64,000 bases of DNA from Streptomyces sp. NBC_01788 (lineage in GTDB: Bacteria; Actinomycetota; Actinomycetes; Streptomycetales; Streptomycetaceae): positions 7,874,001-7,938,000 of the forward strand of contig NZ_CP109090.1 of assembly GCF_035917575.1 (NCBI RefSeq), in the 5' to 3' direction. Positions 21,460-47,802 of this stretch are shown in pieces. The stretch's first letter is position 1. The number at the start of each line of letters is the position of its first letter. Both the position numbers and the translations under genes were made by a program. The notes beneath the pieces are model-generated. The model saw only the letters and a program-made list of their open reading frames with translations. It searched no databases and was not told the origin of the DNA.

Positions 21460-21462
21460 CCG

Positions 21463-22898: not shown

Positions 22899-25800
22899 TC
22901 ACGGAGTGGATGAGGGCCCGGGAGCCGCGTCGGACACCACGCGCATGCCCAGCCCGCGCACTCGGTAGATGCAGGTGTCGTCGCCCCACAGCGTCGCGTC
23001 CGCCGCGACGTAGGGCCCCCGCGCGTCCGTGCCGCTCTCCACGATGTCCATGTCCACCCGGATCAGCCGGTTGGCCGGGGTGATCTGGCCGCGGTAGGTC
23101 CAGGTCGTCTCGCGGCCGGGCAGCACCGGTTCGAACCGCGGGTGCGGGATGCCGTCCGCCGCGCCCCGTTCGAGCAGGTGGTACTGGAGAAGCTGACACA
23201 TGGCCTCGACGCCCAACGACCCCGGCTGCACCGGGTCCTGGAAGAAGTGCGCCCGGAAGAACCACTCGCCCGGGACGACGTCCTTCTCCGACCGCAGCCG
23301 CCCGAGCCCCCGGCTGCCCCCGTCCGGCCAGGAGCCGGTGATCCGGTCGAGCATCAGCAGCATCGGGCCCGGCAGCCGCGGTTCCCCGGCGCAGTAACGG
23401 GCGGGCCGGGCGGTCAGATCGACGACGCGGTCGCAGGGCTCGTCGAGCCGCGCCCGGTCCGTGGCCGACACTGTGAGGCCCTGTTGGTCCTCGAAGGCCG
23501 ACGGCGGGAAGTAGCCGAAGGTCGTCGACAGTTCGAACAGCGGCACGCCGTCGGCCGTGCACCTCACCCGGAAAGACTCGATGATCATGTCCCCGCTCTG
23601 CGAGACACGCGTCAGTTCGGCATGGGTGCGGACCGTGCCCGTCGCCGGAGCGACCTCACCGGTGACCGTCCCCGCGCCGTCCAGGTTGCGGAACAGCAGA
23701 TCCGTACCGGTGGTCAGCGCGCTGCCCACGTACGAGGCCAGCCACCCGCAGGGTTGCAGCGCGATCTCCATCAGGACGGCCAGCGGCATCGTACGGCCGC
23801 CGCTCTGCTCGAAGTACCAGGCACGCGCGGGCACGTCGTACTCCGCGACGACACCGCTGCCCTCCCGCATGCCGCCCTGCGGACCCTCCACCGAGACGAT
23901 CCGGCTCATGAAGTGGTACGGCGGACCGGGCAGCCGCGCGACCCTGCGGGTGCCGTCGAACGGCTCGTACGCCGCACCGAACGCCTCGGTCGGCCTGCCC
24001 CAGGCACACGCCAGCAACGAGGCGTAGCCGAAGGGGAGTCCATCGGCCGCCGTCGCCACCGGCTTCTCCTCCCGGTGCCCGGCCAGCCCGCCGAGCACCG
24101 GGAGCGGCACCGGCGCACCGCTGCCCTGCACTACGGGCGGGCCCGAGCGCCGCCAGTGCGACAGCGGCCAGTCGGGCACCAGCCGCAGCGCCACCTCCTG
24201 GCCCAGGAACGCCTTCGTCCCGTCCACCCAGCCCAGCACGTCCGCGTACAGCGTCGGCACCGGACCGGCCGAGACACCGCGCACGAACACCTCGTAGACG
24301 ACGCGCCGCCCGGCCGGAGTGGCCTGGCCGCGGCACATCGCCTTGAAGGGCAGCCCGTCGACGGTCTCGAAACGCCAGCCGTCCCGGTCCACGGTGAAGC
24401 CGAGGGCGGTCAGGTAGAACGCCATCGCCTGGAGGCCGCCCTGCAGCATCAGGGTGCCCGGCATGCAGGGGTCGTTCTTGAAGTGCCCCGCGAAGAACCA
24501 GTCGTCCGGCGACAGCGGGGTCTCGGCCCGCAGATAGCCGCGGCCCCACGGACCTCCGGCCGGGTCGAACTCCGTCACCTCGTGCAGCAGCCGCAGCCTG
24601 CCGTCGTCGAGCCCCGGTGAGCGTACGTGCGCCGCCGTCGTCTCCCAGCCGGGGCCGAAGCAGTCCGCCGGCCGTCCCTGGGCCAGGGCCCGCACCCGGT
24701 CCGCGTCGAAGCGAGCGCGCCCGCAGCGCACGGCGGGCGGGTCGAGCGGCAGGTCGTCGCCGGGCGGCCGCTCGGCGGGATCCCACCGCACACCGCCGCT
24801 GCCCGCGAGCTCCTCGGGGGTGAAGAACCCGGCCTGGCCCTCGCGGACGCTGAGCCGGAGCTCGCCGTCCACGTAGCAGTCGTAGTGGAAGAAGGCGAGC
24901 CGGACACCGTCGTGCTCCGCGTGGCCGTCGACGTGGATCTCGTAGTGCAGGGTGTCGCCCGCTTCCGGCAGGCTGCCGTGGTACGTCACCTCGCAGCCGA
25001 GCAGCCGGTAGGCGCGCTCGCCCCGGTTGAGGAGGTCGATGCCCAGCCAGCTGAGCAGGAGCAGATCCCCCTGGCCGGCCTCGATCATCAGCCCGGCGGG
25101 CATACGTCCGGTGGAGTCCAGGTACCAGCCGCCGGGCAGGACGTCGGTCTCCGTCCAGATCGTCCCGTCGGTGCGCACCGGGCCGGGCGCGACGAGCGCC
25201 GCCGGCACGGCGTCGATGCCTGTGACCCGGTCCGCGAGCAGCATGGGCGGCTGGGGCATCCGGGTCTGCACCGCGTACGCGTCCTGCTCGGCGAACCGGG
25301 GGCCGAACAGCGCGGAGACCTCCCGCGAGGCGAGATGCTCCAGCTGGGCACGGTCGAACTTCGGCCCCGGCCTCAAGGGTGCCGTCTCCAGGGAGAGCGG
25401 GCGGGGAGCGGACGGTACGGGGGCCGGACGCGGGGCCGGGAGGTCCGGTGGCCGTACGGGAACGGACACGCCGCCGCTCCTCAGCGCGGTGACGGCGAGC
25501 GCGGACAGCCGCAGGAACCGCTGATGGGCCTCGGCGTGCCCGGCGAGGATCTCCTGGTGCAGCGCGGCGACCCGACCGGTCTGCCGCACAACCGCGGCAC
25601 GGGCGCCCGTCACCGGCGGCTCCCGTCCGTCAGTCGGCCGGACGGACAGTGCTGCACGCCGCTCGGAGGCGCCGGGGCGGGGCGCGGCAACGGAAGCCGG
25701 TGCCCCCGACCGGCCGGGCTCCAGGTCCGGCACCGGCGCCAGCTCGGGGGCCCGGGGCAGGGTCACCGGGGCCGCCTCCACCGGCGGCAGCACCGGAGAC

Positions 25801-28800
25801 GCGGGTACGGGCACGGTGACCGCGGGCCCGGGACGCGGAACCTCGGTGGCGGCCTCCGCCAGCCGGGCGAACAACTCGTCGGCGCGCACCGGCACCCCGG
25901 CGGCGACGAGTTCGGCTGCCGCGAGGCAGGGCTGCCGCAGCCCGGTGTCGCCCGGGGCGTCCAGCGCGACGGCCACATGATCCCGGTCGCCGAGCACCCG
26001 CTTGATCCAGCCGGTGCACAGCTTGCGCGGCCCGTGCTCCACGAAGACCCGGACACCGTCGGCCCACGCCTGCTCGACCGTGGCCGCGAAGTCGATCGTG
26101 TTCAGTCCCTGCGCGGTGAGGGCCTCGGCGGCCCGCTCGGCCGTCGGCCGGTACGACTGCCCAGTGGCTCCGCTGTAGAACCGCACACCGGGCACGTCGA
26201 CGGTGGGCTGGTGGTGCGCCCGGCGCCACACCTCGCGGATCTCCGACAACTCCGGTGCGTGGGCGGCCAGGTCGTAGTCGAGCTCGATCGCCCGGTCGCC
26301 GCCGATCCTCGCCACGACGGCCGCGCACGCGCGGGACTCGCCGCCGATGACACAGACTCCGGGCGCGTTCACCGCCATCAGATGGACCGCGGCCTCGGCG
26401 GCGAGCTCGGCACGGACCACCTCCAGGGGCGCCGTGACCAGATGGCTGGACCAGCGGGAGCCCTGGACACCCAGACGCTCCCAGTGCCGCCGGACCGCCC
26501 TGAGTTCACCGGTGAGTTCGGTCGTGAACAGACCACTGTCACGGGTGGCGTCGAAGAGCCTCGCCGAGTCCGGCCAGGCACCCAGCGCCACTAGGGCGGC
26601 CGACTCGCCCGAGGAGTACCCGACAGCGGCGTCCGGCCGCAGCCCGAGCACCTCCCGGCTGAACACCGTGTGAACGGCGGCGAGTTCGGCGGCGGCCCAG
26701 ATCTGGTCGAACACCCCGCGCTCCGCACGGGAACGCAGTCGTGCGCCGATCGCCCCGTGCCGGGCCCGGAAGGCCTCGCCGAGCGACGGCAGCGCGAGCA
26801 TCAACTCGCGGCCCATATCGGGGTACGCGGCCGAGCCGTTGGTGTACACGAACGCCGTCTGCCCCGTGACCGGCCTGTCCCGGTACGCCACATCGGTCGG
26901 GCGGGTCCCGTCCCCGGCCAGCCAACGACGGGCCGCCTCCACACGGCCCGGCAACGCGTCGTCATCGGCCACGAGCGCCAGCCGGGCCGGTCCGGCCCCG
27001 GACTCCGCACCGGCCTCCAGCGCGGCCAGCACCTCCCGGCGGCCGGCCCCGGAGAAGACGTGCAGACGCGGAGCCGGGCCCCGCAGCCACGGCCGCGCGT
27101 CCCCCGCGCGCAGCCGGACACTCGCGGCGGGACCTTCCATCGGTGTCACCACGGCCTTCGCGGTGACCGCGACGGCCGCGGTGTCCGCGGGACCGCCCGA
27201 ACGGGGCACCGCGCGGTGGTGCAGCGAGAGCGCCGCGACCGCGACGGAGACCAGCCCGCACGCGGCGTGAGCGCGCCCGAAGGCCGACGCCGGGTCGAAC
27301 ACCGCGTCGGGGCCGTCCCCGATGACCATGCCGGGCGTGCCGGCGGTGTCCTCGTCCAGCAGGGCGACGACGGTGTCGCCGTCCCTGCGCGCGGTGTCCA
27401 GCGACTTGAGGACCAGGACGACGGCGGCGTCCCCGGGTTCGTCCTCGTGCCCCAACTCCCGCTGGGCTGCCCGGTGCACCGCCTCGCAGGACAGGTCGGT
27501 GGCACCGACGAGGGCGGCGTCGACCTCCCCCGACCGTACGGCCCGGGCCGCCAGGTCCAGCGCCACCAGTCCGGACGCCTCCTCCGCCGAGACCGCGAAC
27601 CCCGGTCCCGCCAGGTCGAGTTGGGTGCTGATCCGGTTCGCGACGAGGTTCGGCATGCTGCCCACCACCGCCTCCGCGGTCATGGGCGGCACGAACGCGT
27701 CCCGTGCGAGCCCCGCCGACGTCGCCGTGGCGGGAAGCCCGGCCTGCTCCAGCCAGTGGGGAACCCGCCAGCGGGCGCCCGCCCGGGCCACCTCGGGGTC
27801 CACCCCCATGCCGACGACCACCATGGTCCGCTCCCGAGGCAGGGACACCGACCGTACGGCCTCCCGGGCCGCCTCCAGCACCAGGAGCTGATGGCGCACC
27901 GTCCGCTGAAGGGCCAGGGGCGGGAAGCACAGGTCCCTCAACTCCACGGCGATCTCCGTGGCGGGACCGCGCCGCTCACCGCCCAGCACCGCCCGACGGA
28001 AGTCCTCGGTACAGGTCCCGTCGCCGACGCGGGCGCCCAGGGCGACGATCGCCACCGGCGTACGGCCGCCCGGCGACTCCTGTACCCGGGCCGGGGCGGT
28101 CACGGCGTCGGCCGGCGGGTGGACCGGCCGCGACACGGCGGACACCGGGCGCAGAGGTCCCGGTGCGGCGGGCACCGGGTCGCCGTCCGGAAGGTCCACC
28201 ACCAGATGGGCGTTGGTCCCGCCGAACCCGAACGCGCTCACCGCCGCCCGGCGCGGCCCCGACCACGGTTCCGGCGCCGCCAGCACCCGCAACGGCGTGC
28301 CCGCCAGCGCCTCCAGCGGCCGCTGTGCCCCGAGCGTCGCCGGACGCACCCCGGCGCGCAGCGCGCCGAGCACTTTCAGCAGCCCGGCCGCGCCCGCCGA
28401 GGCCAGCAGGTGCCCGACGTTCGACTTCGCCGAACCGATGGGCACGTCGTCACCGGCCCCGAAGACCCGGGCCATGGCGCGCGCCTCCACCGCGTCCCCG
28501 ACCGGCGTCCCCGTCGCATGGCACTCGACGAGCGACACGGTCCCGGGCGCGACGCCCGCCACCTCGTACGCCAGGCGCATGGCACGGACCTGGCCCTCCT
28601 CCGACGGACTGATCAGCCCGGCCCCCCGCCCGTCGTTGGACAACCCGACACCGCGGATCACCCCGAGCACGGGCAGACGGGCGGCGCGGGCCTCGGACAG
28701 CCGCATCAGCGCGACGAACCCGGCGCCCTCGCCGTGCACCAGGCCGTCCGCGTCCCGGTGGAAGGGGCGGCTGCGCCCCGTACGGCTCGTCGCCGACAGC

Positions 28801-29501
28801 CCGCAGAATCCCACGTGCAGATAGAGGGGGTCCGCCCGGCTGACCGCACCGGCCACCATCAGGTCCGCCGTGCCGTCGTGCAGCTGGTCGCACGCCAGCT
28901 TGACCGCGTACAGCGACGACGCGCAGGCGGCGTCGAGGGACCACGCGCCCGCGCCGAGCCCGAGGGCCCGTGCGGCGAGCAGGGCGGGCAGCCCGGACGA
29001 GAAGCGGTTCCGGGCGTCGGGCCGCTCCCCGCGCTCTCCCGTCAGCAGGGCGTCACGGAGCCGGGGTTGCTGGGCGGACAGCCAGACGTGCTCGGCGAAA
29101 GCCGCCCCCGAGGGCGTGGGGTAGGACAGGTTTCCCAGCACAAGGCCCGCGCGCGGCAGCGGACCCTCGCGGCCCGCCTCCGTGAGCGCCTGCCGGACGC
29201 CGTACAGGACCCAGTGGAAGAGCGGGTCCAGGGACAGGATCCGCTCCGGGGCCATCCGGAAGCCGCTCGGGTCGAAGACGGACTCGAACCCCGTGACGAA
29301 CCCGCCGACATCGGTCCAGGTCCGGTCGAGATGGTCGTCCACCGAGCCCATGGCCCAGCGGCGGGGCAGCCGCCACCGGCGCTCCGGGACGGCCGACAGG
29401 CTCGCGCGGCCCGCGGCGACGTTGTCCCAGAACGTGTCCGGATCGAGCGCGTCGGGCAGCACACAGCCCCGGCCGACGACGGCGATCGGTTCGAATTGCA
29501 T
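22899..29501 (-). CDS. PfaC-like PUFA/heterocyst-glycolipid-type synthase: KS-CLF-AT-DH-DH
   Basis: This 2200-residue subunit has these domains in order. Ketosynthase (about 1-440): Cys193 in DAACASSLYAV, His328 in VECHATGT, His364 in SNVGHLLASAG. Chain-length-factor-like KS (about 480-800): the active Cys is replaced by Glu641. Acyltransferase (about 880-1185): GYSSGES, nucleophile Ser963, His1081. Linker (about 1200-1380) with a helix around 1311-1345. Then four hot-dog folds (about 1415-2190) as two FabA-type dehydratase pairs: 1 and 3 lack the dyad, 2 has His1673/Asp1677 in GHFKNDPCMPG and 4 has His2085/Asp2089 in AHFFQDPVQPG. This matches myxobacterial Pfa3 and zeamine-type subunits but without an acyl-glycerol acyltransferase. 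It should dehydrate and set chain length with the PfaA-like protein, 71 nt upstream in the same operon. Confidence 0.93.
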   Translation of the reverse strand: MQFEPIAVVGRGCVLPDALDPDTFWDNVAAGRASLSAVPERRWRLPRRWAMGSVDDHLDRTWTDVGGFVTGFESVFDPSGFRMAPERILSLDPLFHWVLYGVRQALTEAGREGPLPRAGLVLGNLSYPTPSGAAFAEHVWLSAQQPRLRDALLTGERGERPDARNRFSSGLPALLAARALGLGAGAWSLDAACASSLYAVKLACDQLHDGTADLMVAGAVSRADPLYLHVGFCGLSATSRTGRSRPFHRDADGLVHGEGAGFVALMRLSEARAARLPVLGVIRGVGLSNDGRGAGLISPSEEGQVRAMRLAYEVAGVAPGTVSLVECHATGTPVGDAVEARAMARVFGAGDDVPIGSAKSNVGHLLASAGAAGLLKVLGALRAGVRPATLGAQRPLEALAGTPLRVLAAPEPWSGPRRAAVSAFGFGGTNAHLVVDLPDGDPVPAAPGPLRPVSAVSRPVHPPADAVTAPARVQESPGGRTPVAIVALGARVGDGTCTEDFRRAVLGGERRGPATEIAVELRDLCFPPLALQRTVRHQLLVLEAAREAVRSVSLPRERTMVVVGMGVDPEVARAGARWRVPHWLEQAGLPATATSAGLARDAFVPPMTAEAVVGSMPNLVANRISTQLDLAGPGFAVSAEEASGLVALDLAARAVRSGEVDAALVGATDLSCEAVHRAAQRELGHEDEPGDAAVVLVLKSLDTARRDGDTVVALLDEDTAGTPGMVIGDGPDAVFDPASAFGRAHAACGLVSVAVAALSLHHRAVPRSGGPADTAAVAVTAKAVVTPMEGPAASVRLRAGDARPWLRGPAPRLHVFSGAGRREVLAALEAGAESGAGPARLALVADDDALPGRVEAARRWLAGDGTRPTDVAYRDRPVTGQTAFVYTNGSAAYPDMGRELMLALPSLGEAFRARHGAIGARLRSRAERGVFDQIWAAAELAAVHTVFSREVLGLRPDAAVGYSSGESAALVALGAWPDSARLFDATRDSGLFTTELTGELRAVRRHWERLGVQGSRWSSHLVTAPLEVVRAELAAEAAVHLMAVNAPGVCVIGGESRACAAVVARIGGDRAIELDYDLAAHAPELSEIREVWRRAHHQPTVDVPGVRFYSGATGQSYRPTAERAAEALTAQGLNTIDFAATVEQAWADGVRVFVEHGPRKLCTGWIKRVLGDRDHVAVALDAPGDTGLRQPCLAAAELVAAGVPVRADELFARLAEAATEVPRPGPAVTVPVPASPVLPPVEAAPVTLPRAPELAPVPDLEPGRSGAPASVAAPRPGASERRAALSVRPTDGREPPVTGARAAVVRQTGRVAALHQEILAGHAEAHQRFLRLSALAVTALRSGGVSVPVRPPDLPAPRPAPVPSAPRPLSLETAPLRPGPKFDRAQLEHLASREVSALFGPRFAEQDAYAVQTRMPQPPMLLADRVTGIDAVPAALVAPGPVRTDGTIWTETDVLPGGWYLDSTGRMPAGLMIEAGQGDLLLLSWLGIDLLNRGERAYRLLGCEVTYHGSLPEAGDTLHYEIHVDGHAEHDGVRLAFFHYDCYVDGELRLSVREGQAGFFTPEELAGSGGVRWDPAERPPGDDLPLDPPAVRCGRARFDADRVRALAQGRPADCFGPGWETTAAHVRSPGLDDGRLRLLHEVTEFDPAGGPWGRGYLRAETPLSPDDWFFAGHFKNDPCMPGTLMLQGGLQAMAFYLTALGFTVDRDGWRFETVDGLPFKAMCRGQATPAGRRVVYEVFVRGVSAGPVPTLYADVLGWVDGTKAFLGQEVALRLVPDWPLSHWRRSGPPVVQGSGAPVPLPVLGGLAGHREEKPVATAADGLPFGYASLLACAWGRPTEAFGAAYEPFDGTRRVARLPGPPYHFMSRIVSVEGPQGGMREGSGVVAEYDVPARAWYFEQSGGRTMPLAVLMEIALQPCGWLASYVGSALTTGTDLLFRNLDGAGTVTGEVAPATGTVRTHAELTRVSQSGDMIIESFRVRCTADGVPLFELSTTFGYFPPSAFEDQQGLTVSATDRARLDEPCDRVVDLTARPARYCAGEPRLPGPMLLMLDRITGSWPDGGSRGLGRLRSEKDVVPGEWFFRAHFFQDPVQPGSLGVEAMCQLLQYHLLERGAADGIPHPRFEPVLPGRETTWTYRGQITPANRLIRVDMDIVESGTDARGPYVAADATLWGDDTCIYRVRGLGMRVVSDAAPGPSSTP

Positions 29502-29572
29502 GCGGATCTCACTTCACGGCGGGGCAGGTCGGGACTGGTACGCGGGGAGCCAGGGATCGGAGGGCGCGCGGC

Positions 29573-32500
29573 TCAGGAGGGGCGGCGGACGAGTTCCACG
29601 CCCAGCAGTTCCAGACGGACGGCTCCATCGGCGTCGATGAGCGCCGCGTCGCAGCGCGCCCCCGTGCTGTGGACCTTCCGGCCCCGCAGCACACACCGCA
29701 CGGTGCCCTCAACCGGGCCGCGCCGGTGCACCCTGCACTCCGCGACGGCCATCGGCAGCGTCGCCGCACCGAGTGCCTCCTGCGCCCAGACCAGGGCGAG
29801 TTGGAGTGCGCCGTCCACGGCGGCCGGGTCGAGCGGCCAGTGCTCACCCGGCCACTCCAGCACGGATACGCCCGCGACGACCGCCTCGGCCCCGTGCTCC
29901 GAAACACCGTGCGTCGAGCGGACGGAGCGGAAGCGGGGGCCGTGGAAGAGGATCTCGCCGTCGTACAACTCGGCGCCATCCAGCGGCTTGAGGCCGTCCG
30001 GGCTGCTCCACGCGGCCGGATCCGGCTCCTCGGCTCCGGTGTCCAGTACGGCCCGGAAGTGCGCCACCCCGCTGTCGCCCCGCAGTTCCGCCTCCAGCCC
30101 CGACGGCGAACCGGCCGGGCCCCGGCTGCCGTGCAGGGTGAGCCGGTGGCCCGCTCCGGCCAGTTCGGGCAGGGCGCACTTCTTGTACACCCGCAGATCG
30201 CGCAGGACGAGAGGGCCGGCTGCACCCGGCAGCCATGCGGTGGCCGCCCCGGCGAACCAGTTCAGGACCATCGCCACGGGCAGCACGGGAACCCCGGCGA
30301 TCTCGTGATCGGCCAGCTGCGGCAGGCTGTCCGCCCGGACCAGCAGCTCAGCCGGACGCGGATCGCCGGCCGGCGACAGGGCCTCCGGATCGTCCCCGGC
30401 CACCAGGACGACCCGGGCCCCACCGGCCGCGCCGTCCAGCTCGGCCGTGAAGGCGGCCGCCCCCTGCTCCAGAGGGATCAGTGGAACCCCTGACCGGCCG
30501 AAGAGCCCGGCCAGAGCCGGCGTGACCATACCGCCGCGCCACGGACCCCAGGCGACGCACCGCACCAGGCAGCCGGGGCGGCGGACCTGCTCGGCGGACG
30601 CGACCTGAGCGAGGATCTCGTTGGCCATGGCGTAGTCGCTCTGCCCCGCGTTGCCGAACACGGCCGCCACCGAGGAGAACAGGCAGATCACGTCCAGCGG
30701 ATCGTCCGCCGTCGCGGCCAGCAGCGCGCGCAGACCGTCCACCTTGGTGGACATCACCGACTCGACCTGCTCGTCGGTCTTGTCGGCGATCAGCTTGTCG
30801 GCCAGCACCCCCGCGCCGTGCACGATGCCGGTGACCGGCCCCCACGCGTCACGTACGTCGCGCAGTGCCGCGGCCACGGCGTCCTCGTCGCGGACGTCCA
30901 CCTGCACGTACCGGACGGGGGGCCCCGCCTCCTCCAGCGCCGCCAGCGTCGCCCGCACCTCGCGCGCGGCCAGGATCTCCCGGGCCCGCGCCGCGATCCG
31001 GGCGGGCGAGGAGTCCGCCGCGTCCCCGGTGGAACGCTCGGCGAGCAGCCGGGTGAGCGCCGGTTCGTCGGCGGCCGACGCGAGCCCTTCGGGCTCGGGA
31101 GACGGTGCCGTCCTGCCGAGCAGCACGATTCGCGGACGGTGGGTCCCGGCCAGGTCCAGCAGCGCGGCTGCGGTCACCCCGCGGGCCCCTCCGGTGGCCA
31201 CGATCACCGACTCCGGCGTGATGCGCCGGGTGCCGTCGGGCGTCACCGGTGCGGGCACCGCCAGCAGGGTGGTGCGGGTACCGTCCGCGCGGAGCCCCAC
31301 CTCCAGGTCGGGGCCGCCTTCCAGCAGCTCCCGCACGATCGCCTCGGCGACCTCCTCGTCGCTCCGGCCGCCGCGTTCGCAGTCGACGGCCTTGACCGAG
31401 GCGCCCGGCCACTCCTTCGCTGCGGTCCTGGTCAGACCGGCGACCCCGCCCAGCCAGGCCCGGTCGGGTGCGTGACCGCCGAGCCCGAAGTCGCCTCCGG
31501 TGTCCTGCACGGTCACGAACAGCCCGCCCCGCTCGGCCGCCTGTGCCGCGACCGTGCGCGCGGCGCTGAACACCGACCGGTGGACCTCCCGCGCCTCGTC
31601 CGGTGCGCCGCTCGCGGTCAGCCCGCCGAGGTGGATGACACCGCGCGCGTCCTCGGGCACCTCCGCCGTGGCGGTGGCGTCCACGCCGTGCTCCGCCAGT
31701 TTCCGCGCGACGAGGCCGGTGAGCGCGGCGTCCTGGGGGCCCGCGCCCGTCACCACGAGCGGTCCGTCCAGGAGCCCGGCCGTCGCCAGGCCGGACGCCG
31801 GTGACTCCACGGCGCGCGGTACCAGCCTCGTCAGTGCCGTCTCCTGCCCGAACTCGGTGCGCATGGCCGGGATGGTTGGGACGCCGGCCATCTCCGGGGC
31901 GGCGGGAATCGCGGGTGCGGCGGGAATCCCCGAGACGGCGGGAGTTCCCGCCACTGCGGGGGTTCCTGACGCTGTGGGAACCCCCGACATGGCGGGGGGC
32001 CCGGACGAGGCGGACGCGGCCGGGGTGTCCGGCGCCGGGGTCCCGGGCTGCCGGCCGGCCGCCGTGAGCGCCTCGACGATTTCGCGCAGCGTCCGGAGCT
32101 TGCCGAGCTCTCCGACGTCTCCCGTCGCCATGTCGCCGACGCTGCGGCGCACGGCCGACAGGATCTCGACGCGCTTGATCGAGTCGACTCCCAGATCAGC
32201 CTCCAACTCCATGTCCACGTTGAGCATCTCGGCCGGATAGCCGGTGAGCCGGGCCACCACCGAGAGCAGGAGTTCCTCCAGCGCGGACGCCGACAGGGGC
32301 GCGCCATCGGTGGCCTGAGCCGGGGAATCCACCGGGACGGCGGCAGGCGCCCGGCCCTCGGCGGCGACCGGTGCGGGCGACGGCGCGACGCCGGACCTGG
32401 CGGGTGCGAAGGCGGGTTGGGCCCCGGGAACGCCGACCGCTGCCGGGGCCGGTGTCACGGGTGCAGGGACCTGCCGAGGGGCTGAAGGACGGGGGAGCGG

Positions 32501-35500: not shown

Positions 35501-35758
35501 GGGCGGCACACCGTACGCCAGCGGATCGAAGTCCACCTCCGGCAGGAAGGCACCCCGGCGGGCGTACGTCTTGTCGGGGGCGGCCGGGTCGGGGTCGTAG
35601 TGGTCCGCCACCAGCCAGCGGGAGGCGGGCACTTCGGTGATCAGGTCCTGGCCGCCGGTCACGATCCGCCAGTAGCCGGCCGCGTCCGTCGCGCCGGGCA
35701 CCAGGGCGCCGACACCGACCACGGCGACGGGCACCTGCCCGGGGGCGGAAGCGGACAC
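29573..35758 (-). CDS. PfaA-like iterative synthase: KS-AT-ACP-KR-DH
   Basis: This 2061-residue protein starts at GTG 35756-35758, 6 nt after GAGGAG; an upstream ATG at 35818 overlaps the pfaD stop but lacks a ribosome site. The ketosynthase (about 8-470) has Cys207 in DAACASS, His342 and His388. The acyltransferase (about 575-870) has GHSFG with Ser675 and STAFHSP, which points to malonyl-CoA. A helical segment near 1026-1070 and Pro/Ala linkers follow. The single carrier domain (about 1155-1235) has LGVDSIKRVEIL (Ser1193), the PUFA-synthase carrier motif. The ketoreductase (about 1510-1760) has GGARG, Ser1696 and Tyr1709. The C-terminal dehydratase (about 1805-2061) has His1818 and Asp1982. 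Having one carrier is unusual, since marine PUFA synthases have four to nine. It works with the PfaC-like and PfaD proteins on one growing chain. Confidence 0.93.
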   Translation of the reverse strand: MSASAPGQVPVAVVGVGALVPGATDAAGYWRIVTGGQDLITEVPASRWLVADHYDPDPAAPDKTYARRGAFLPEVDFDPLAYGVPPAGLPATDTSQLLALMVADQVLTDAGGLPDMDRDRVGVVLGAAALELLPHMYGRAQRPLWLKALREYGFAEAEARAVCDRISAHFTPWQESTFPGLLGNVVAGRIANRFDLHGTNHTTDAACASSLAALSTAVGELALGRADLVISGGVDTGNDIGMFLCFSKTPALSRSGDCRPFSDAADGTMLGEAVVMYALKRLSDAERDGDLIHAVIRGIGTSSDGRSTAIYAPLPDGQARALRRAYEQAGYGPRTVELVEAHGTGTKAGDTAELTALRAVFEAPGRTDGPRTDGQWCALGSVKSQIGHTKCAAGAAGLLKAVMALHHKVLPPTIKVDRPIPAAADPDGPFYVNTETRPWVRPAGHPRRASVSSFGFGGSNFHVTLEEYVPSGAAARVPPRHRSAPDELILFSGASPSDLVPPETDGDRPLAALARESHRAFSPTDPVRLAVVATDTEDLREKYAQALTLIRQQPGTALSTPNGIRYAVGDPEPGRLAFLFPGQGSQYVGMGAGLAMLSPTAQAVWDRLGGTGFDGRPLHRVVFPPPAFTDEERAAQAALLAATEWAQPALAVHALALLDVLRELGLRPDCAAGHSFGELVALHCAGALDADALVGLARRRGELMRDAAAVPGAMLAVAADHEHVVSVLAAGGFGDIWPANHNSPRQVVLSGVTEAVARAEKAFSAEGVGTRRLATSTAFHSPLIAPAGEPLAAFLRTVPLTEPRFEVYGNADAAPYPSSPDEVRRRIADHLSSPVLFRDQIEAMYAAGVRTFVEVGAGTALTGLVGQILGDREHAAVPLDRPDRSGVSSLHTALGELAVHGIPLDFDPLWAPYASPGTPVKERTPRMTVKISGANYGQLYPPRADGAEPSPAAAPAPAPALEHHPYRAPVPAPSPSPSPASDIPVVPMHAYEAEPSHDPVPAYDAVPADDALAVYGAEPGAAPGAEWYAAVESVQRHTAEAHAACQRMLTDSHLAFLRMTETTLAAMLGIQSTGGVLDAPAPPAPLPLPRPSAPRQVPAPVTPAPAAVGVPGAQPAFAPARSGVAPSPAPVAAEGRAPAAVPVDSPAQATDGAPLSASALEELLLSVVARLTGYPAEMLNVDMELEADLGVDSIKRVEILSAVRRSVGDMATGDVGELGKLRTLREIVEALTAAGRQPGTPAPDTPAASASSGPPAMSGVPTASGTPAVAGTPAVSGIPAAPAIPAAPEMAGVPTIPAMRTEFGQETALTRLVPRAVESPASGLATAGLLDGPLVVTGAGPQDAALTGLVARKLAEHGVDATATAEVPEDARGVIHLGGLTASGAPDEAREVHRSVFSAARTVAAQAAERGGLFVTVQDTGGDFGLGGHAPDRAWLGGVAGLTRTAAKEWPGASVKAVDCERGGRSDEEVAEAIVRELLEGGPDLEVGLRADGTRTTLLAVPAPVTPDGTRRITPESVIVATGGARGVTAAALLDLAGTHRPRIVLLGRTAPSPEPEGLASAADEPALTRLLAERSTGDAADSSPARIAARAREILAAREVRATLAALEEAGPPVRYVQVDVRDEDAVAAALRDVRDAWGPVTGIVHGAGVLADKLIADKTDEQVESVMSTKVDGLRALLAATADDPLDVICLFSSVAAVFGNAGQSDYAMANEILAQVASAEQVRRPGCLVRCVAWGPWRGGMVTPALAGLFGRSGVPLIPLEQGAAAFTAELDGAAGGARVVLVAGDDPEALSPAGDPRPAELLVRADSLPQLADHEIAGVPVLPVAMVLNWFAGAATAWLPGAAGPLVLRDLRVYKKCALPELAGAGHRLTLHGSRGPAGSPSGLEAELRGDSGVAHFRAVLDTGAEEPDPAAWSSPDGLKPLDGAELYDGEILFHGPRFRSVRSTHGVSEHGAEAVVAGVSVLEWPGEHWPLDPAAVDGALQLALVWAQEALGAATLPMAVAECRVHRRGPVEGTVRCVLRGRKVHSTGARCDAALIDADGAVRLELLGVELVRRPS

Positions 35759-35814
35759 GGTATCTCCTCGGGGATGGACGGCTGCTGCTGACGCCTTCGG
35801 GACTCGGGGGCCGC

Positions 35815-37398
35815 TCATGCCAGCCCGCACGGGGTGTAGGTGAACGCCTCGGACGGCAACGGGACTCCGTAGGTGCGCAGTTGATGGGCGCGGGTGAGCA
35901 CCGCGGCGCCTTCGAGCAGGTTGAGCGCGATCTGCACCACGGACCGGTTCCCCGGTTCGGCGAGGAACGTGCCCGCGACCCAGCGGTTGAACGCGCCCAT
36001 CGCCGGCCCGCACCAGATCTGGTAGTCGGCACGCCGCGCCGACTCGCCGCTGATCGCCCACCGGCTGGAACTGCCCAGGTACCAACGGAAGACCAGCGCC
36101 ATACGGTGCTTGGGATCGGCCTCCGCACGCGTGATCTCCGAGGGGTCGCGCCGTTCCCAGAAAGCGCGCGTACGCTGCCAGACCTCGTCGAACGAGGCTC
36201 GCAGCACGTCCCGTTCGATCGCGACGCGCACGGCCGGCGGGATCTCCTCCAGCGAGCTGTGCGCCCGGTACGCGGCGTGGAGTCTGGCGGCCCGCTGGGC
36301 GAACATCGTTCCCCGGGACAGCACTTGCAGCGTGACTCCCAGTTCGAACATGTCCGCCGCCGGTGCCATGGCCACGTCGGCGACGTCGGCCTCGCAGAGC
36401 ATCGCCTTGGCCTCGTCGGACAGGCCCGCCTCGACGGCGGTCTGGTTCACCGATCCGACGACGACGTAGGACGCGCCGAGGGCGAAGGCGGCGGCCACCG
36501 CGTCCGGAGTGCCCAGTCCGCCGGCCGCGCCGATCCTGACGGGCCGGGGGTAGCCGTACCGCCGGCAGAGCGCGTCGCGCAGCAGGACGATCCTCGGCAG
36601 CAGGGCCGACAACGGCCGGTTGTCGGTGTGACCTCCGCTGTCGGCCTCCACGGTGACGTCCTCGGCCACGGGGACCAGGGCCGCCAGAGCGGCCTCCTGC
36701 GGGTTCAGCTTGCCCTGGGCGACGAGCAGGTCGAGGAGCGCGGCCGGCGCGGGGGAGAGGAACCGCTCGGCCACCTCGGGCCGGGAGACCTTGGCGAGCA
36801 TCCGCGTATGCCGGACGATCCCGCCGTCGGCGCCCCGGCGCAGACCCCGGGCCGAGCACAGTACGACGGCCGGGGTCAGCTCCATGAACGCCGACGCCGA
36901 GATCCGGGGCACGCCGCAGCGCAGCAGCAGCTCGGCGACGCGGAACTCCAGCGCGGGCTCGGCCGGTGAGTGGATGAGGTTCACGCCCCAGTTCGGACGG
37001 GACCGCAGTTCCTGCGCCAGCGCGTGCACGGCCTGCTCCACCTCGGCGTACGCCAGACCGCCGGCGCCGAAGAAGCCGAGCATCTCCGCCCGGGCCATCG
37101 CGGACACCATCCGCGTGGTCGCGATGCCGTTCGCCATCTCGCCCGCCACATAGGGGAAACGGACGCCGTGCGCCTCGCAGAAGGTGCGCCCGCCGAGCCA
37201 TTCGGGGTACAGCGGCGGCAGCGTGCCGAGCACCTGTCCGTCGGGTCCGGGGCCGGTCGCGAGCCCCAGCTCACGGCCGCTCGGCCCGCTGACGACGTGT
37301 ACGGGTTCCCGGATCCTTCGGGCACGGGCGGCGATCTCCTCCAGGGAGAAGGCCGGAGGGGACGCGACGGGGGCGTCAGGAGGGTAGAGCACGGGCAC
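35815..37398 (-). CDS. pfaD: PfaD-family enoyl reductase (2-nitropropane dioxygenase-like, FMN)
   Basis: This 527-residue protein is the stand-alone trans-acting enoyl reductase of PUFA-type and several trans-AT polyketide systems. It has a short N-terminal domain, then an FMN TIM barrel with PYVAGEMANGIATTRMV, GFFGAGGLAYAEVEQAV, NWGVNLIHSP, VEADSGGHTDNRPL (catalytic His region) and GAAGGLGTPDAVAAAFALGA (phosphate loop). The C-terminal domain, with YLGSSSRWAISGE and YQIWCGPAMGAFNRW, is specific to PfaD proteins. GTG 37396-37398 is preferred, with GGAG 7 nt before it. It lies 56 nt upstream of the PfaA-like gene and 41 nt downstream of the thioester reductase. It should saturate chosen double bonds with NAD(P)H. 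Confidence 0.94.
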   Translation of the reverse strand: MPVLYPPDAPVASPPAFSLEEIAARARRIREPVHVVSGPSGRELGLATGPGPDGQVLGTLPPLYPEWLGGRTFCEAHGVRFPYVAGEMANGIATTRMVSAMARAEMLGFFGAGGLAYAEVEQAVHALAQELRSRPNWGVNLIHSPAEPALEFRVAELLLRCGVPRISASAFMELTPAVVLCSARGLRRGADGGIVRHTRMLAKVSRPEVAERFLSPAPAALLDLLVAQGKLNPQEAALAALVPVAEDVTVEADSGGHTDNRPLSALLPRIVLLRDALCRRYGYPRPVRIGAAGGLGTPDAVAAAFALGASYVVVGSVNQTAVEAGLSDEAKAMLCEADVADVAMAPAADMFELGVTLQVLSRGTMFAQRAARLHAAYRAHSSLEEIPPAVRVAIERDVLRASFDEVWQRTRAFWERRDPSEITRAEADPKHRMALVFRWYLGSSSRWAISGESARRADYQIWCGPAMGAFNRWVAGTFLAEPGNRSVVQIALNLLEGAAVLTRAHQLRTYGVPLPSEAFTYTPCGLA

Positions 37399-37439
37399 GA
37401 AGGGGCTCCAGCGGGGAGAGAGAAGGCGAGGTGCGCGGG

Positions 37440-40559: not shown

Positions 40560-40566
40560 ACGAACC

Positions 40567-40609
40567 GGCACCGGGGCCGAACTCAGTGCTCGGGTACGGT
40601 CCCGGTGCC
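40567..40609. terminator. Bidirectional hairpin between acyltransferase and monooxygenase
   Basis: GGCACCGGG (40567-40575) and CCCGGTGCC (40601-40609) are exact complements around a 25-nt loop, between the converging stops at 40559 and 40650. Confidence 0.6.
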
Positions 40610-40649
40610 AACCCTTCCTTCCAGAAGGCCACTTGGCGATCCCCAGGGC

Positions 40650-42026
40650 TCACACGACGTCGGCCGCCCGGGTGGTGCCGCTGACGCCGGGCAGGCTCGG
40701 CATGACGCCACGTGCGCGACGCCTGCCCGCTCGGCGCTCCCGGCGCAGGGTCCTTCGGTAGGAGCGGAAGTCGATCTCGATCCCGTGGCGGTAGGTGGAC
40801 ACGTACGTCGTGCCATGCCGGCGCCGCTCGCGCGCGATCGCCCGTGTCATGTCCGCCGGTGACGGCAGCGAGACCGCGCCCTCGATCAGTTCGGCGATCC
40901 ATTCCGCCTGCGGTTCGAGCAGCGGGAAGGCCGCGCCGGAGGGCTGTGCGAGCCCCATGAAGTAGAGCCCCGGGATGCGGGGCGGGACGGTACGCAGATA
41001 GAGCTCGGTGCGGCCGTCCGGGGCGGCGAACAGGGACGGTTCCAGGAAGGGGAACGAGATGGCGTAGCCCGTCGCGTACACCACCGCGTCCACCTGTTCA
41101 CGGCTGCCGTCCGTGAAGGCCGCCGTGGTCCTGCCGAAGGAGCGGAGACCGGGCTTCGGTGTGACCGCGCCCCGGGCCAGTTGGACGAGGAGTTCGTCGG
41201 AGGTGGAGGGGTGGCGGGCGAGCGGCCCGCGGTCCGGGGTGGGCAGCCCGTAGTGGGCCGGGGCACCGCGGGTGAGCCGCAGGAGGAGCCGCAACCCCGA
41301 GTCCTGCACGAATCGCGGGAGACCGGACAGCGGGCTCCACACCAGATGGTCCGCCGGACGGCCGAGCAGCATCTTGGGGAACACGTGCGCCGCGTCGCGC
41401 GCGGAGAGGAACGTCCGGGCCGCCGTGCGCGAGATCTCCGCCGCGATCTCGCACGCGGAGTTGCCCATGCCGATGACCAGCACCCGCAGACCGGCGTACG
41501 GGTCAGGGGTGCGGTAGTCGTGCGAGTGGATCGCGGTCCCCTCGAACTCCTCGGCACCGGGCACGGCGGGGGACGGGAGACGCGGGTCCCAGTGATGGCC
41601 GTTGGCCACCACCACCTCGCTGTAGCGCCGCGTCTCCTCGCCCGTGTCGCCGCGGCGCCGGCACACCACCTCCCAGCCGCCGTCGTCCAGGGGCCGCACC
41701 GAAGTGACCTTTGTGCCGCACACGATGTGGCGGTGCAGGCCGAACGACGTGGCGTAGTCCTCCAGGTAGGCCAGGACCTTGCTGTGGTGCGGAAAGACCG
41801 GGTAGCTCTCCGGCATGGCCAGGGAGGAGAACGACATGCTCTCCTTCGAGATGTTCGCGTGCAGTGACGCGTACACCCCCGACATGCCGTTGTCGTTGCC
41901 GTACCGCCAGAGTCCGCCGATGCCCGACCCGGCCTCGAAGCAGTCGAACGGAACGTCCCGGGAGGCGAAGACCCTGCTCGCCGCCAGGCCTGACGGGCCG
42001 GCGCCGATCACACATGTCCTCCGCAT
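40650..42026 (-). CDS. Flavin-containing monooxygenase (FMO-like)
   Basis: This 458-residue class B flavin monooxygenase has the FAD-binding GAGPSGLAA (residues 8-16), then FEAGSGIGGLW. The FMO fingerprint is FEGTAIHSHDY (FxGxxxHxxxY), the NADPH-binding motif is VIGMGNSACEIA, and VYATGYAISFPFL carries the ATGY motif. The C-terminal 45 residues are strongly basic (RRERRAGRRRARG). FMOs oxidise soft N or S atoms, and related enzymes do Baeyer-Villiger oxidation of ketones. Here it may modify the product of the Pfa-type synthase; the substrate is not visible in the sequence. It starts at ATG 42024-42026 and is divergent from an ABC exporter, with a 304-nt gap that holds a 14-bp palindrome. Confidence 0.9.
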   Translation of the reverse strand: MRRTCVIGAGPSGLAASRVFASRDVPFDCFEAGSGIGGLWRYGNDNGMSGVYASLHANISKESMSFSSLAMPESYPVFPHHSKVLAYLEDYATSFGLHRHIVCGTKVTSVRPLDDGGWEVVCRRRGDTGEETRRYSEVVVANGHHWDPRLPSPAVPGAEEFEGTAIHSHDYRTPDPYAGLRVLVIGMGNSACEIAAEISRTAARTFLSARDAAHVFPKMLLGRPADHLVWSPLSGLPRFVQDSGLRLLLRLTRGAPAHYGLPTPDRGPLARHPSTSDELLVQLARGAVTPKPGLRSFGRTTAAFTDGSREQVDAVVYATGYAISFPFLEPSLFAAPDGRTELYLRTVPPRIPGLYFMGLAQPSGAAFPLLEPQAEWIAELIEGAVSLPSPADMTRAIARERRRHGTTYVSTYRHGIEIDFRSYRRTLRRERRAGRRRARGVMPSLPGVSGTTRAADVV

Positions 42027-42330
42027 GACTGACCGACCTTTCTGGACCGGGGCGGAAACCCGGGCGGGCGGACCTGCCGGCCCCCCGGTCCGGGCGACGC
42101 TAGCCGCCCCGGTGACCCCGAACCCCCTTTCCGCCGGCGGAACCGCCGCACGCGTGACGCGGCGGGCGCCGGATTGACGCCGTGGGACGGAGCCGGGACC
42201 ACGCCGTTTCCCTTGCTGCGGCTGCTCGTTGGGCACGGGCGGCCCGGTTCCGCCGCCGCTTCGGAAAGAGCCGGAAGACGCGGACCGGTTCCGCGGACAA
42301 CCGGAAGACCTGGCACGACGGAGCAGCGCG
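42027..42330. promoter_or_regulatory. Divergent intergenic region with a perfect 14-bp palindrome
   Basis: TTCCGCCGGCGGAA (42129-42142) is a perfect palindrome about 100 nt before the monooxygenase start. A looser relative, TTCCG-N9-CGGAA, lies at 42248-42266 nearer the ABC gene. Both could be operators coordinating the two divergent units. The rest shows no gene or clear promoter. Confidence 0.4.
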
Positions 42331-42945
42331 ATGGACGTCACAGATGTGCACCACTCCTACCGGCAGCACTCGGTTCTACGGGGCGTCGACCTCCGGCTGC
42401 GGGCCGGGGTGCTCGCCGGGATCGTGGGGGAGAACGGCGCCGGCAAGACGACGCTGCTGAAGATCCTCTCCGGTGAACTCAGGCCGGACCGGGGCTCGGT
42501 GCGCCACAGAGGCAGGTTCGGCTACTGCCCGCAGTCCGTGGTCCTGGACGACTCCTTCACCGTGCGTCAGCACCTCGACTTCTTCCGGCACGCCTTCGGA
42601 CTCGCGGACCTGCGGCGGGCCGAGGAAGTGATGGAGACCCTGGACTTCACCGAGTACCTCGACCAGCGTGCGGGCCTCCTCAGCGGGGGCTCACGGCAGA
42701 AGCTGAACCTGACCCTCGCGCTCATGCACGACCCCGACGTGCTGCTGCTGGACGAGCCCTACCAGGGCTTCGACTGGGAGACGTATCTGCGCTTCTGGGA
42801 GTTGGCGACCGGGCTGCGCGACGCCGGACGCTCGGTGCTGGTCGTCTCGCACCTGGCGTACGACATCGACCGGCTGGACCAGTTGTGGCGCCTGGAGGAC
42901 GGACGCCTGCACCGCCAGGACTACTGCGCGGAGGCGGCGGCATGA
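42331..42945 (+). CDS. ABC transporter ATP-binding protein
   Basis: This compact 204-residue ATPase has Walker A GENGAGKTTLLK (about residues 31-42), the Q-loop region FGYCPQSVVLDDSFT, signature LLSGGSRQKLNLT and Walker B VLLLDEPYQGFDWE (Glu after Asp, catalytic), and the switch His in VVSHLAYD. It lacks the C-terminal extension seen in DrrA-type proteins. ATG 42331 gives MDVTDVHHSY; the frame before it is not protein-like. It overlaps the permease by 4 nt (ATGA), so the two form one exporter. Its place at the edge of the Pfa-type cluster suggests export of that product (inference). Confidence 0.92.
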   Translation: MDVTDVHHSYRQHSVLRGVDLRLRAGVLAGIVGENGAGKTTLLKILSGELRPDRGSVRHRGRFGYCPQSVVLDDSFTVRQHLDFFRHAFGLADLRRAEEVMETLDFTEYLDQRAGLLSGGSRQKLNLTLALMHDPDVLLLDEPYQGFDWETYLRFWELATGLRDAGRSVLVVSHLAYDIDRLDQLWRLEDGRLHRQDYCAEAAA

Positions 42946-43757
42946 AGCGGCACTGGGCCCTGTTCACCACGGCCTCCCGGTACGCGCTGATCGGCCACGC
43001 CCGCAACCGGTTCGCGATGCTGCTGGTGGTGCTCTACATCCCCGTGTGGATCGCCCTGGCCTACGTGACCATTCCCGACCGGCCGGCGCCGTTCCGACTG
43101 CGTGCCACGGGCGAGGTGCTGACCCCGCCCGGCAACCATCTCACCCAGATCACGGGCGCGTTGAACGCGGTCACTCTGATCGCCGGGTTCATGATGTTCG
43201 CCGCCACCTTCACGGGCGGTGCCTTCGACCGGCGCCTGGCCATGGCGGGTTACCCGCGGCACCACCTGGTCCTCGCCAAGCTCTCCGCGCTCACCCTGGT
43301 CTGCGCCGCCGTCGCCGCGTACGCCACGGCCGCCGCCGGCTTCGCCTGGTCGCCCCGGCAGCCCCTCATGCTCACTGCCGCGCTGTTCTGCGCCGCTCTG
43401 ACCTACGGCGCGCTCGGCGTGGTCTTCGGCTCGGTGCTCCGCCGCGAGGTGGAGGGCATGTTCGCCATCCTGATGATCAGCATCATCGACGTCGCCCTGC
43501 AGAACCCCCTCTCAAGCTCCGGTTCGGACAGTGCCGTTGTGTGCTTCCTGCCGTCGTACGGAGCCGTGCAGGCCAGTATGTCCGCGGCCTTCTCCACCGC
43601 GCCGGTGGCCCAGGGCCTCGTGATCCAGCTCCTCTGGCTGACGGGGGCGGCGCTGGCCGGGTTCATGGTCTTCCGCCGCCGTACCCGCGACGCGCTCCCA
43701 CCGGAACGGGCCGCCGTGACCGCGGCGGCCAATGATCGTTCTGTAAGCGGGCGTTGA
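42942..43757 (+). CDS. ABC-2 type permease
   Basis: This 271-residue membrane protein starts inside the ATPase stop (ATGA at 42942-42945). Six hydrophobic helices can be seen, the first at about 24-44 (FAMLLVVLYIPVWIALAYVT). A loop of about 35 residues outside follows (TIPDRPAPFRLRATGEV), then the typical ABC-2 helices around AGFMMFAATFTGG and YGALGVVFGSVLRREVEGMF. The tail is basic. It is the membrane half of the exporter with the ATPase at 42331. A small secreted protein gene follows 44 nt after its stop and may be in the same transcript. Confidence 0.88.
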   Translation: MKRHWALFTTASRYALIGHARNRFAMLLVVLYIPVWIALAYVTIPDRPAPFRLRATGEVLTPPGNHLTQITGALNAVTLIAGFMMFAATFTGGAFDRRLAMAGYPRHHLVLAKLSALTLVCAAVAAYATAAAGFAWSPRQPLMLTAALFCAALTYGALGVVFGSVLRREVEGMFAILMISIIDVALQNPLSSSGSDSAVVCFLPSYGAVQASMSAAFSTAPVAQGLVIQLLWLTGAALAGFMVFRRRTRDALPPERAAVTAAANDRSVSGR

Positions 43758-45201: not shown

Positions 45202-45207
45202 GGTCCC

Positions 45208-47800: not shown

Positions 47801-47802
47801 GG

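Follow-up and report, generated by a model that had tools for sequence, protein, structure and literature searches.

We analysed a stretch of 64,000 nucleotides (hereafter the window, to which positions refer) from Streptomyces sp. NBC_01788, which spans 7874001-7938000 of a genome of 8.27 Mb in a single contig, one end of which is ~330 kb away. It carries, at 22899-44323, a gene unit for an iterative synthase of the polyunsaturated fatty acid (PUFA) type together with a stand-alone thioester reductase (TR), a WS/DGAT-fold acyltransferase, a flavin-containing monooxygenase (FMO), an ABC transporter and a small secreted protein (Table 1). The genes for TR, PfaD, PfaA and PfaC follow one another on the minus strand, pfaA overlapping the end of pfaD by 4 bases, and strand and overlap suggest that the pfa genes form one operon. 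The WS/DGAT gene is divergent from the TR gene across a gap of 618 bases and converges on the FMO gene; divergent from the latter are the genes for the ABC ATPase, the ABC-2 membrane protein and the secreted protein.

The identities of these parts were taken from Pfam and NCBIfam matches and the coding frames from codon-position GC; start codons are our choice, guided by orthologue lengths and gene overlaps. All nine reading frames of the unit open and close properly. A 2542-aa open frame for PfaA was discarded as too long: its initial ~490 residues lie in the wrong frame and overlap pfaD, and codon-position GC flips near residue 490. All parts named in a preliminary description of this DNA are present (KS-AT-single ACP-KR-DH and KS-CLF-AT-DH-DH proteins, PfaD, TR, a WS/DGAT-like enzyme, an FMO and an ABC pair). 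The extent it gave, 22899..43757, holds for the genes inside it and falls short at one end, since the co-conserved secreted protein (43802-44323) carries the unit past 43757. The ABC membrane protein is the weakest identification, with a single Pfam match below cut-off. Rfam and tRNA scans were both empty, a promoter and terminator scan yielded nothing useful, and the motif GGTTCCGC, found in two intergenic stretches of the window, is not conserved in most relatives.

PfaA, a PfaC-type KS-CLF protein with FabA dehydratases, and PfaD are encoded together, the set that marks a PUFA-type (Pfa) synthase. The domain order is KS-CLF-AT-DH-DH in the PfaC-like and KS-MAT-one ACP-KR-DH in the PfaA-like protein. 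The FabA-type active sites of the former read HFKNDPCMPG and HFFQDPVQPG, and a Tyr precedes the catalytic Ser of its AT, as in PfaB. The best solved match of this AT is PfaB of Shewanella baltica (9ry8, 73 bits), and that of the KS-CLF is ORF10 (6riw, 337 bits). The PfaC-like protein ends 19 residues past its last FabA domain and gave no Pfam match for an acyl-glycerol acyltransferase (AGPAT) domain, which confirms the absence of this domain noted before. Because it has a single ACP and no AGPAT, the system is not a synthase of eicosapentaenoic or docosahexaenoic acid (EPA/DHA), and the expectation of a product other than a membrane fatty acid of that type stands.

Among the window and the 16 relatives described below, one ACP (DSIK) and the KR motif were found in 16/17 PfaA proteins, the other (G147) being cut by its contig, and the strict DH pattern in 10/17. 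The FabA pair was present in 13/17 PfaC entries (G133 shows one, G219 and G116 none; the PfaC of G116 is cut, and the G147 entry is not PfaC, its contig ending before pfaC), GYSSGE in 14/17 and the strict CLF pattern in 8/17; in these counts a miss may be a motif variant. A second PfaD-family gene, 48% identical and in another context, lies elsewhere in the same genome (G000:C1:7311432-7312811).

Table 1. Genes of the unit and domains of its synthase proteins (positions in the window).
Feature	Position	Strand	Evidence
PfaC-like (fused PfaBC), 2200 aa	22899..29501	-	Pfam/NCBIfam, active-site motifs
PfaC KS	28188-29492	-	Pfam/NCBIfam, motif DAACASS
PfaC CLF	~26952-28187	-	Glu replaces KS Cys
PfaC PfaB-type AT	~25962-26924	-	motif GYSSGE
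PfaC two FabA-type dehydratase/isomerase regions	~22932-25004	-	HF..DP..PG
PfaA-like, 2081 aa	29573..35818	-	TIGR02813 1183 bits (cut-off 1010), Pfam
PfaA KS	34367-35731	-	Pfam, motif DAACASS
PfaA MAT	33056-34027	-	motif GHSFGE
PfaA single ACP	32069-32272	-	motif LGVDSIKRVE
PfaA KR	30536-31201	-	motif TGGARGV
PfaA PKS-type DH	29588-30334	-	Pfam
PfaD, trans enoyl reductase, 527 aa, GTG start	35815..37398	-	TIGR02814 677 bits (cut-off 449), orthologue lengths
Stand-alone TR, 396 aa	37440..38630	-	NAD_binding_4 (PF07993) 157 bits
WS/DGAT-fold acyltransferase, 436 aa	39249..40559	+	PF03007 29.3 bits (cut-off 23.6)
FMO, 458 aa, optional member	40650..42026	-	PF00743 284 bits
ABC transporter ATPase, 204 aa	42331..42945	+	PF00005 100 bits
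ABC-2 type membrane protein, 271 aa, presumed exporter; overlaps ATPase gene by 4 bases	42942..43757	+	ABC2_membrane_3 match below cut-off
Small secreted protein, 173 aa	43802..44323	+	apparent signal peptide, 4 Cys, predicted all-alpha

Conservation of the gene unit

We searched 295 genomes of the genus, the source genome included. TR matches at E 1e-20 were obtained in 64 of them, among which the source and 16 others are close (53-86%); the core relatives are the 16 with a TR of at least 51% identity beside PfaD, and with the source they make 17 core genomes. TR, PfaD and PfaA adjoin in the same order in 16/16 relatives, and PfaC comes next in the 15 whose contig reaches that far. WS/DGAT orthologues (at least 54%) are present in 15 of the 17 core genomes and in none of the 278 others, where the next best match reaches 36%. 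Orthologues of the FMO (at least 76%) occur in eight of the 295 genomes and those of the ABC membrane protein (at least 81%) in ten, in both cases all among the 17 (next best 52% and 69%, respectively), and the ABC ATPase has an orthologue (80-94%) in 8 of the 14 core neighbourhoods whose sequence covers that flank. The secreted protein was found in 16 genomes, 13 of them core and three not; the copy of one core genome (G195) lies ~130 kb from the main cluster, beside another TR and a PKS, so that 12 are linked to cassette genes or share short contigs with them. Protein distances correlate between PfaD and TR (r 0.96, n=17) and between PfaD and the WS/DGAT enzyme (r 0.98, n=13). Judged by this co-occurrence of TR, WS/DGAT, FMO, ABC and secreted protein genes with the core, the cassette is a conserved unit, with an old core, a common WS/DGAT gene and an optional FMO. 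Homologous loci do not, then, always lack the reductase, acyltransferase and FMO, and the idea that these three are conserved as a family is borne out for TR and WS/DGAT, the FMO being dispensable. In G195, the second TR and PKS (L221, 4200-15700) stand ~10 kb from the extra secreted-protein copy and ~120-130 kb from the main cluster.

PfaD loci of at least 64% identity numbered 22 (a contig-end fragment in G251 was set aside), 17 of them with TR. Those of G060, G219:C182, G205 and G228 gave no TR match in the stretches examined, and that of G048 has only a distant reductase-like gene (29%) ~8 kb away. Ten examined of the 64 lower-identity PfaD matches (48-55%) likewise had no TR match, and none of the 15 PfaD neighbourhoods without a close TR gave a WS/DGAT match at E 1e-5. 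In the sister PfaD cluster of G060, which has no TR, a cytochrome P450 gene lies directly upstream of pfaD (L101, 16148-17527).

Named relatives were collected by one profile scan of genome contigs with the TR alignment, and the figures that follow concern the best 80 of 166 TR loci. The best 38 of these 80 are all from Streptomyces, and TR adjoins PfaD in Streptomyces, Actinacidiphila, Frankia, Parafrankia, Actinoalloteichus, Actinophytocola, Saccharothrix and Embleya. Where PfaD is present and TR is at least 58% identical, a WS/DGAT gene lies within 6 kb in 29/35 loci, or 28/34 without L148; in this count five hitless loci on short contigs were set aside, the short L148 was counted for its hit, the hit of L151 is weak (47 bits) and L184 passes 58% on a short segment only. 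In stretches with no PfaD, WS/DGAT was found at both of two loci with TR at or above 58% (contig ends) and at 3/20 below it (two set aside). At L176 (Actinophytocola gossypii) and L184 (Saccharothrix algeriensis) a gene with both WS_DGAT Pfam domains stands between TR and PfaD, which is, in terms of gene content, a different layout with the same partners; L123, L124 and L126 carry a second WS/DGAT gene between the FMO gene and the first. The core thus looks old. WS/DGAT is the norm in one branch and comes in two layouts or more, while the FMO appears to be the member most easily lost or latest to arrive.

A TR of the 40% class also occurs with a WS/DGAT gene at two loci that have other synthases: at L065 (G213, 10978-20000) the neighbour is a reducing type I PKS that includes a methyltransferase, and at L067 (G062, 6474-11999) the pair lies next to a lone KAS and an aromatic amino acid lyase. 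This recurrence of the pairing next to other synthases suggests that the two enzymes act in a joint pathway.

The Frankia loci L161, L163 and L172 hold the TR-PfaD-PfaA core with no WS/DGAT match within 6 kb. Frankia is a genus with a lipid-walled vesicle, and its core is a candidate source of a long-chain lipid. No such synthase is named in the available portions of two papers on the Frankia envelope (PMC12501873, PMC5745019).

Proteins of the predicted release, acylation and export steps

The TR motifs GATGFLG and YExSK (YxxxK) are kept in an alignment of 15 sequences. By profile, its nearest solved relative is the reductase domain of MxaA (4u7w, 110 bits), aligned over the first half of the profile (positions 3-194 of 384); MxaA forms the myxalamid alcohol. 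Reductase domains of this kind may also halt after the transfer of two electrons. In Mycobacterium triplex (L188, 9992-12271) a TR 43% identical to that of the window is fused to a sulfotransferase domain, and M. ahvazicum (L182) has an open frame of similar length. Plasmid records include three with TR (38-43%), 17 with the PfaD region (60-80%) and four with WS/DGAT (25-30%).

The product of the WS/DGAT gene (ACYLTRANSFERASE) passes the PF03007 cut-off by a small margin (29.3 vs 23.6 bits). Its catalytic motif xHxxxDG reads RHACQDG; the second His, the Asp and the Gly are kept in 12 orthologues and invariant in 15 aligned sequences. A plain sequence search with this protein returned no solved relative at E 0.01. 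The best PDB folds for its AlphaFold2 model (pLDDT 79) are the wax synthases 6chj (E 4e-20) and 7nxg (E 1e-18), with TM scores of 0.62-0.69. The match at rank 4 is a dehydratase of the condensation fold (8s6l), so that the fold alone is no proof of ester synthesis.

The best solved match of the FMO is 8z12, a 'flavin-dependent monooxygenase' (342 bits), followed by reconstructed FMO5-type enzymes; no paper turned up that names the PDB codes of the nearest structures. The secreted protein, aligned across ten sequences, matches no Pfam family over cut-off, and its AlphaFold2 model (pLDDT 63) found no PDB fold at E < 0.5. In the three non-core genomes that encode it (G146, G160, G220) it again stands beside the ABC pair (ATPase 67-74%, membrane protein 61-67%). 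A polyprenyl synthase gene (PF00348, 176 bits) adjoins them in G146, and G220 has a gene similar to it in sequence.

Homologues of the ABC-2 pair also stand beside WS/DGAT-family genes at L224, L225, L226, L227, L228, L229 and L230. At these seven further loci a member of the ABC membrane family and a WS/DGAT homologue are no more than 5 kb apart, against ~0.04 expected by a crude estimate; the count comprises eight row pairs, drawn from 53 WS/DGAT and 77 ABC rows after exclusion of those of the cassette. Neighbours were scanned at L224 and L225: the former has a fused squalene/phytoene-synthase and cis-prenyltransferase, its WS/DGAT-like protein being just below the Pfam cut-off, and the latter two polyprenyl synthases. 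Both would thus be isoprenoid clusters carrying an acyltransferase-like gene and the same exporter family, and L231 has the ABC pair with both prenyl genes and no WS/DGAT. Because the family recurs beside WS/DGAT genes in other lipid clusters, we read the ABC module as a probable exporter of very hydrophobic products, accompanying WS/DGAT genes in more than one lipid class. Such a recurrent module might offer a way into the secretion of very greasy molecules by these bacteria.

Proposed product and alternative explanations

The cassette is a variant of the Pfa secondary lipid synthases, and it is real, conserved and coherent. We favour, with a probability of about 0.55, its interpretation as a conserved cassette that makes and exports a very-long-chain secondary lipid of the wax type. 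PfaA, PfaC and PfaD would build an acyl chain iteratively on the one ACP from malonyl units, although the cycles that retain a double bond or a hydroxyl are not predictable, and the PfaB-like AT within PfaC would handle or hand over the long chain. The stand-alone TR would then free the chain from its carrier by NAD(P)H reduction, giving an aldehyde or, more likely, a primary alcohol. To this hydroxyl, or to one left in the chain, the WS/DGAT-fold enzyme may join a second acyl group, yielding a wax-type ester. Where an FMO is present it would add a further oxidation, and the ABC-2 pair may export the lipid with the assistance of the secreted helical protein outside the cell. The parts, their active-site motifs, one predicted fold and their co-inheritance are read directly from the DNA; from family and context we infer every reaction, the preference for alcohol over aldehyde, the export role and the product. 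The preliminary description had foreseen an alcohol or aldehyde, perhaps esterified and oxidised. A reduced, esterified and exported product is still the best reading; oxidation belongs less to the core logic than to late decoration, since the FMO is found in 8/17 genomes only.

Several observations weigh against a wax-type ester cassette. Two of the 17 core genomes have no WS/DGAT orthologue, nor do 6/35 loci of the main branch (PfaD, TR at least 58%) have such a gene within 6 kb, and in the older branch (PfaD, TR below 58%; Frankia, Actinoalloteichus, Embleya and others) it is that close in only 1/16, or 2/17 with L184 included. A close orthologue of the ABC membrane protein is limited to 10/17 core genomes and one of the FMO to 8/17, and the strict AT and paired FabA motifs are missing in G133 and G219. 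The TR scores 130 bits against TIGR01746, under the curated cut-off of 213, and the WS/DGAT enzyme 88 bits against TIGR02946, under its curated cut-off of 310. Of the HHxxxDG motif, the window enzyme has Arg for the first His, which only 4/12 orthologues retain, and the fold includes condensation domains and the dehydratase AzeD (8s6l, rank 4) as well, so that acyl transfer is not forced. The Fisher tests are strong, but like the co-occurrence counts and distance correlations they ignore genome relatedness. Finally, the lipid product is so far a prediction from the genes.

The TR might yield an alcohol or aldehyde only, the WS/DGAT-fold enzyme being a dehydratase or amide former or acylating an unrelated acceptor, so that the product would be a free alcohol or aldehyde or some other conjugate. 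The breadth of the fold, from AzeD to the condensation domains of nonribosomal peptide synthetases (NRPS), would fit such a role, as would the TIGR02946 score under cut-off, the replacement of the first His by R, L, D or E in 8/12 orthologues and an older branch that mostly operates without WS/DGAT. Yet two wax synthases lead the structural matches, the catalytic His, Asp and Gly are invariant in the 15 aligned sequences, and the divergent genes of L176 and L184, in the same context, carry both WS/DGAT Pfam domains; we consider this alternative unlikely, if well worth keeping in mind. That reduction halts at the aldehyde, which the FMO or an unlinked enzyme would turn into an acid, a formate ester or a hydrocarbon, is rather improbable. 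TR domains of this kind are able to halt after two electrons, and the FMO is linked in 8/17 core genomes and has reconstructed FMO5-type enzymes among its solved relatives; however, its orthologue is absent from the other 9/17, which makes aldehyde oxidation unlikely as the main fate, the nearest solved TR is that of MxaA, presumably an alcohol maker, and a WS/DGAT partner would require an alcohol.

Release of a membrane or free polyunsaturated fatty acid, off-loaded by the PfaB-like AT while the reductase, acyltransferase and transporter serve some other purpose, we regard as quite improbable. It would accord with the PfaA-family score above cut-off, with the Tyr-Ser pair of the AT, with a description of PfaB as an acyltransferase that acts late and perhaps off-loads the chain (PMC12895367) and with the old label 'eicosapentaenoic acid' on Streptomyces loci. 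Against it stand the single ACP of the window and of 15/16 relatives (the 16th is cut), the lack of an AGPAT domain, TR beside PfaD in 16/16 and the finding of a WS/DGAT orthologue in 0/278 non-core genomes. Less probable still is a hybrid pathway to a lipidated polycationic amino-acid polymer, involving a single-module NRPS of the Pls/PosA (NAPAA) type on the plus strand at 15954-20012 (TIGR02353, 523 bits) and the intervening two-component system at ~20782-22845. This NRPS (NRPS_term_dom, 523 bits) lies 2.9 kb from pfaC, Ottowia thiooxydans is described as having a PUFA-like cluster that includes an NRPS of the NAPAA type (PMC13291983), and L121, the nearest relative among the listed loci (TR 96%), has a 98% identical NRPS 17.5 kb from TR, as here. 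L121 is so close to the window, however, with 95-99% identity also in genes outside the unit, that this synteny says little. The NRPS, response regulator and histidine kinase were found in 0/16 core neighbourhoods (E 1e-8, 6-40 kb examined), there was no match at E 1e-150 in the genomes of L122 and L124 (S. kebangsaanensis and S. atratus), L138 and L161 (four of six named genomes queried), and a 72% NRPS copy in the genome of L125 sits on another contig than its TR.

With positional conservation in the near-identical L121 only, the NRPS and the two-component system were rejected as pathway parts, and the former is a candidate poly-amino-acid synthetase that probably lies outside the lipid unit. 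Divergent from it, a 794-aa open frame on the minus strand (13301-15685) has a coding-like base composition and no Pfam match. On the other side, 44542-63209 holds methyltransferases, an APH-like kinase, an MFS protein, a second ABC pair, a BTAD-type regulator, a PIG-L deacetylase and an ADP-ribosylglycohydrolase. The genes from 44542 on (methyltransferase, APH, MFS, HTH, second ABC pair, BTAD regulator) were likewise rejected, as they are not kept in core neighbourhoods: apart from G195/L149 and L121, neither the 16 core neighbourhoods nor the 80 named loci (the latter with up to 10 kb on that side) show a match to any of them with at least 40% identity over at least 40% of its length. These two count against the rejection, G195 (the L149 locus) having the second ABC pair (65%, 45%) with a partial BTAD match, and L121 keeping the APH, MFS, HTH and second ATPase genes. 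In G195 (L052) the homologue of the second pair (48539-50271) and the partial BTAD match lie 4-8 kb from the WS/DGAT gene, and the first ABC pair is missing; the second pair is perhaps a swapped exporter.

If the wax-type interpretation is right, one Streptomyces PUFA-like lineage can be assigned a delimited set of genes and a class of product open to testing, an exported long-chain alcohol and its ester, with its likely members (reductase, acyltransferase, exporter, secreted protein) now separated from neighbour genes.

Comparison with known systems

Among the titles and abstracts searched, with subscription journals and preprints mostly outside, none describes a synthase of the PUFA type accompanied by genes for a thioester reductase or for wax esters. 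The bacterial wax ester synthases of Marinobacter (6chj) and Acinetobacter (AbWSD1, 7nxg) share with the window enzyme the predicted fold and the catalytic His-Asp-Gly; the latter differs in being only 16-17% identical to them by structural alignment, in the replaced first His and in its linkage to a dedicated synthase. Myxobacterial PUFA synthases carry an AGPAT domain on their PfaC-like protein, which the window protein does not. With the EPA/DHA synthases (pfaABCD) the window shares the domain families and the PfaB-type AT with Tyr before Ser; it differs from them in its fused PfaBC, in the linked release and ester genes and in its one ACP, where EPA/DHA PfaA has four to six in tandem (PMC13291983). 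The Streptomyces PUFA-PKS-NRPS hybrids described in the same paper (JACS Au 2026) are a different set from the window cassette.

Streptomyces PUFA-like clusters have long been labelled eicosapentaenoic acid without a demonstrated product. SCO0123 of S. coelicolor is reportedly a WS/DGAT homologue. The eicosapentaenoic acid label has been given to SCO0124-0129 or SCO0126-0127 (PMC5932044, PMC7324645, PMC6414726, PMC2374992), and transcription of the cluster so labelled accompanies sporulation (PMC2374992). Shulse and Allen (2011) placed SCO0124-0129 in Type L, and Frankia and S. avermitilis in Type M (PMC3098273). Type L resembles the window in having PfaD at the 5' end and a fused pfaBC, whose order is KS-CLF-DH2-AT instead of KS-CLF-AT-DH2 (PMC3098273); as far as its published description goes, then, the S. 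coelicolor region, previously named as a related locus, is a loose parallel. As to Type M, the Frankia genomes of L161, L163 and L172 have the same TR-PfaD-PfaA order as the window. The available part of that paper mentions no thioester reductase or WS/DGAT for Type L or M (PMC3098273).

The heterocyst glycolipid (hgl) island has in common with the window an iterative Pfa-like synthase, a thioester reductase (TER) and an ABC transporter, the last two named in its gene map, and it makes a long-chain hydroxylated aglycone (PMC11804610). The window has a WS/DGAT-type acyltransferase in the place of the glycosyltransferase, and a secreted helical protein in addition; no glycosyltransferase match was obtained among the genes called at 22899-44323. 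The earlier label 'heterocyst-glycolipid-type' is therefore apt for the linked TR, its activity being deduced, and does not extend to the glycosyltransferase or to a demonstrated family membership. A bolder proposal, which we put forward as tentative and on balance doubtful, is that the cassette is an actinobacterial counterpart of the heterocyst lipid: exported very-long-chain alcohols or diols, capped by acylation in place of glycosylation, would form a surface permeability barrier, and the ABC pair and secreted protein would be a plug-in export module, also recruited by isoprenoid clusters with a WS/DGAT-like enzyme of their own. The lipids would then be wax esters, or diesters at loci with a second WS/DGAT gene, and would coat spores, aerial hyphae or, in Frankia, vesicles.

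The zeamine/fabclavine system (Zmn10-14) resembles the window in its single-ACP PfaA, in having homologues of PfaC and PfaD, and in a gene for a stand-alone TR that accompanies the pfa genes. In zeamine, whose chain is a C40 polyamino alcohol (PMC13291983), a KR and the stand-alone TR follow just downstream of the pfa genes (PMC3547906). The window has no separate KR gene between PfaD and TR, its AT lies within PfaC, and its PfaD is 527 instead of 1010 aa long, without an aminotransferase domain and with the PfaD family covering most of its length; a WS/DGAT partner takes the place of the NRPS-PKS arm. By analogy, our best reading is that release of the chain works as in zeamine and the heterocyst glycolipids.

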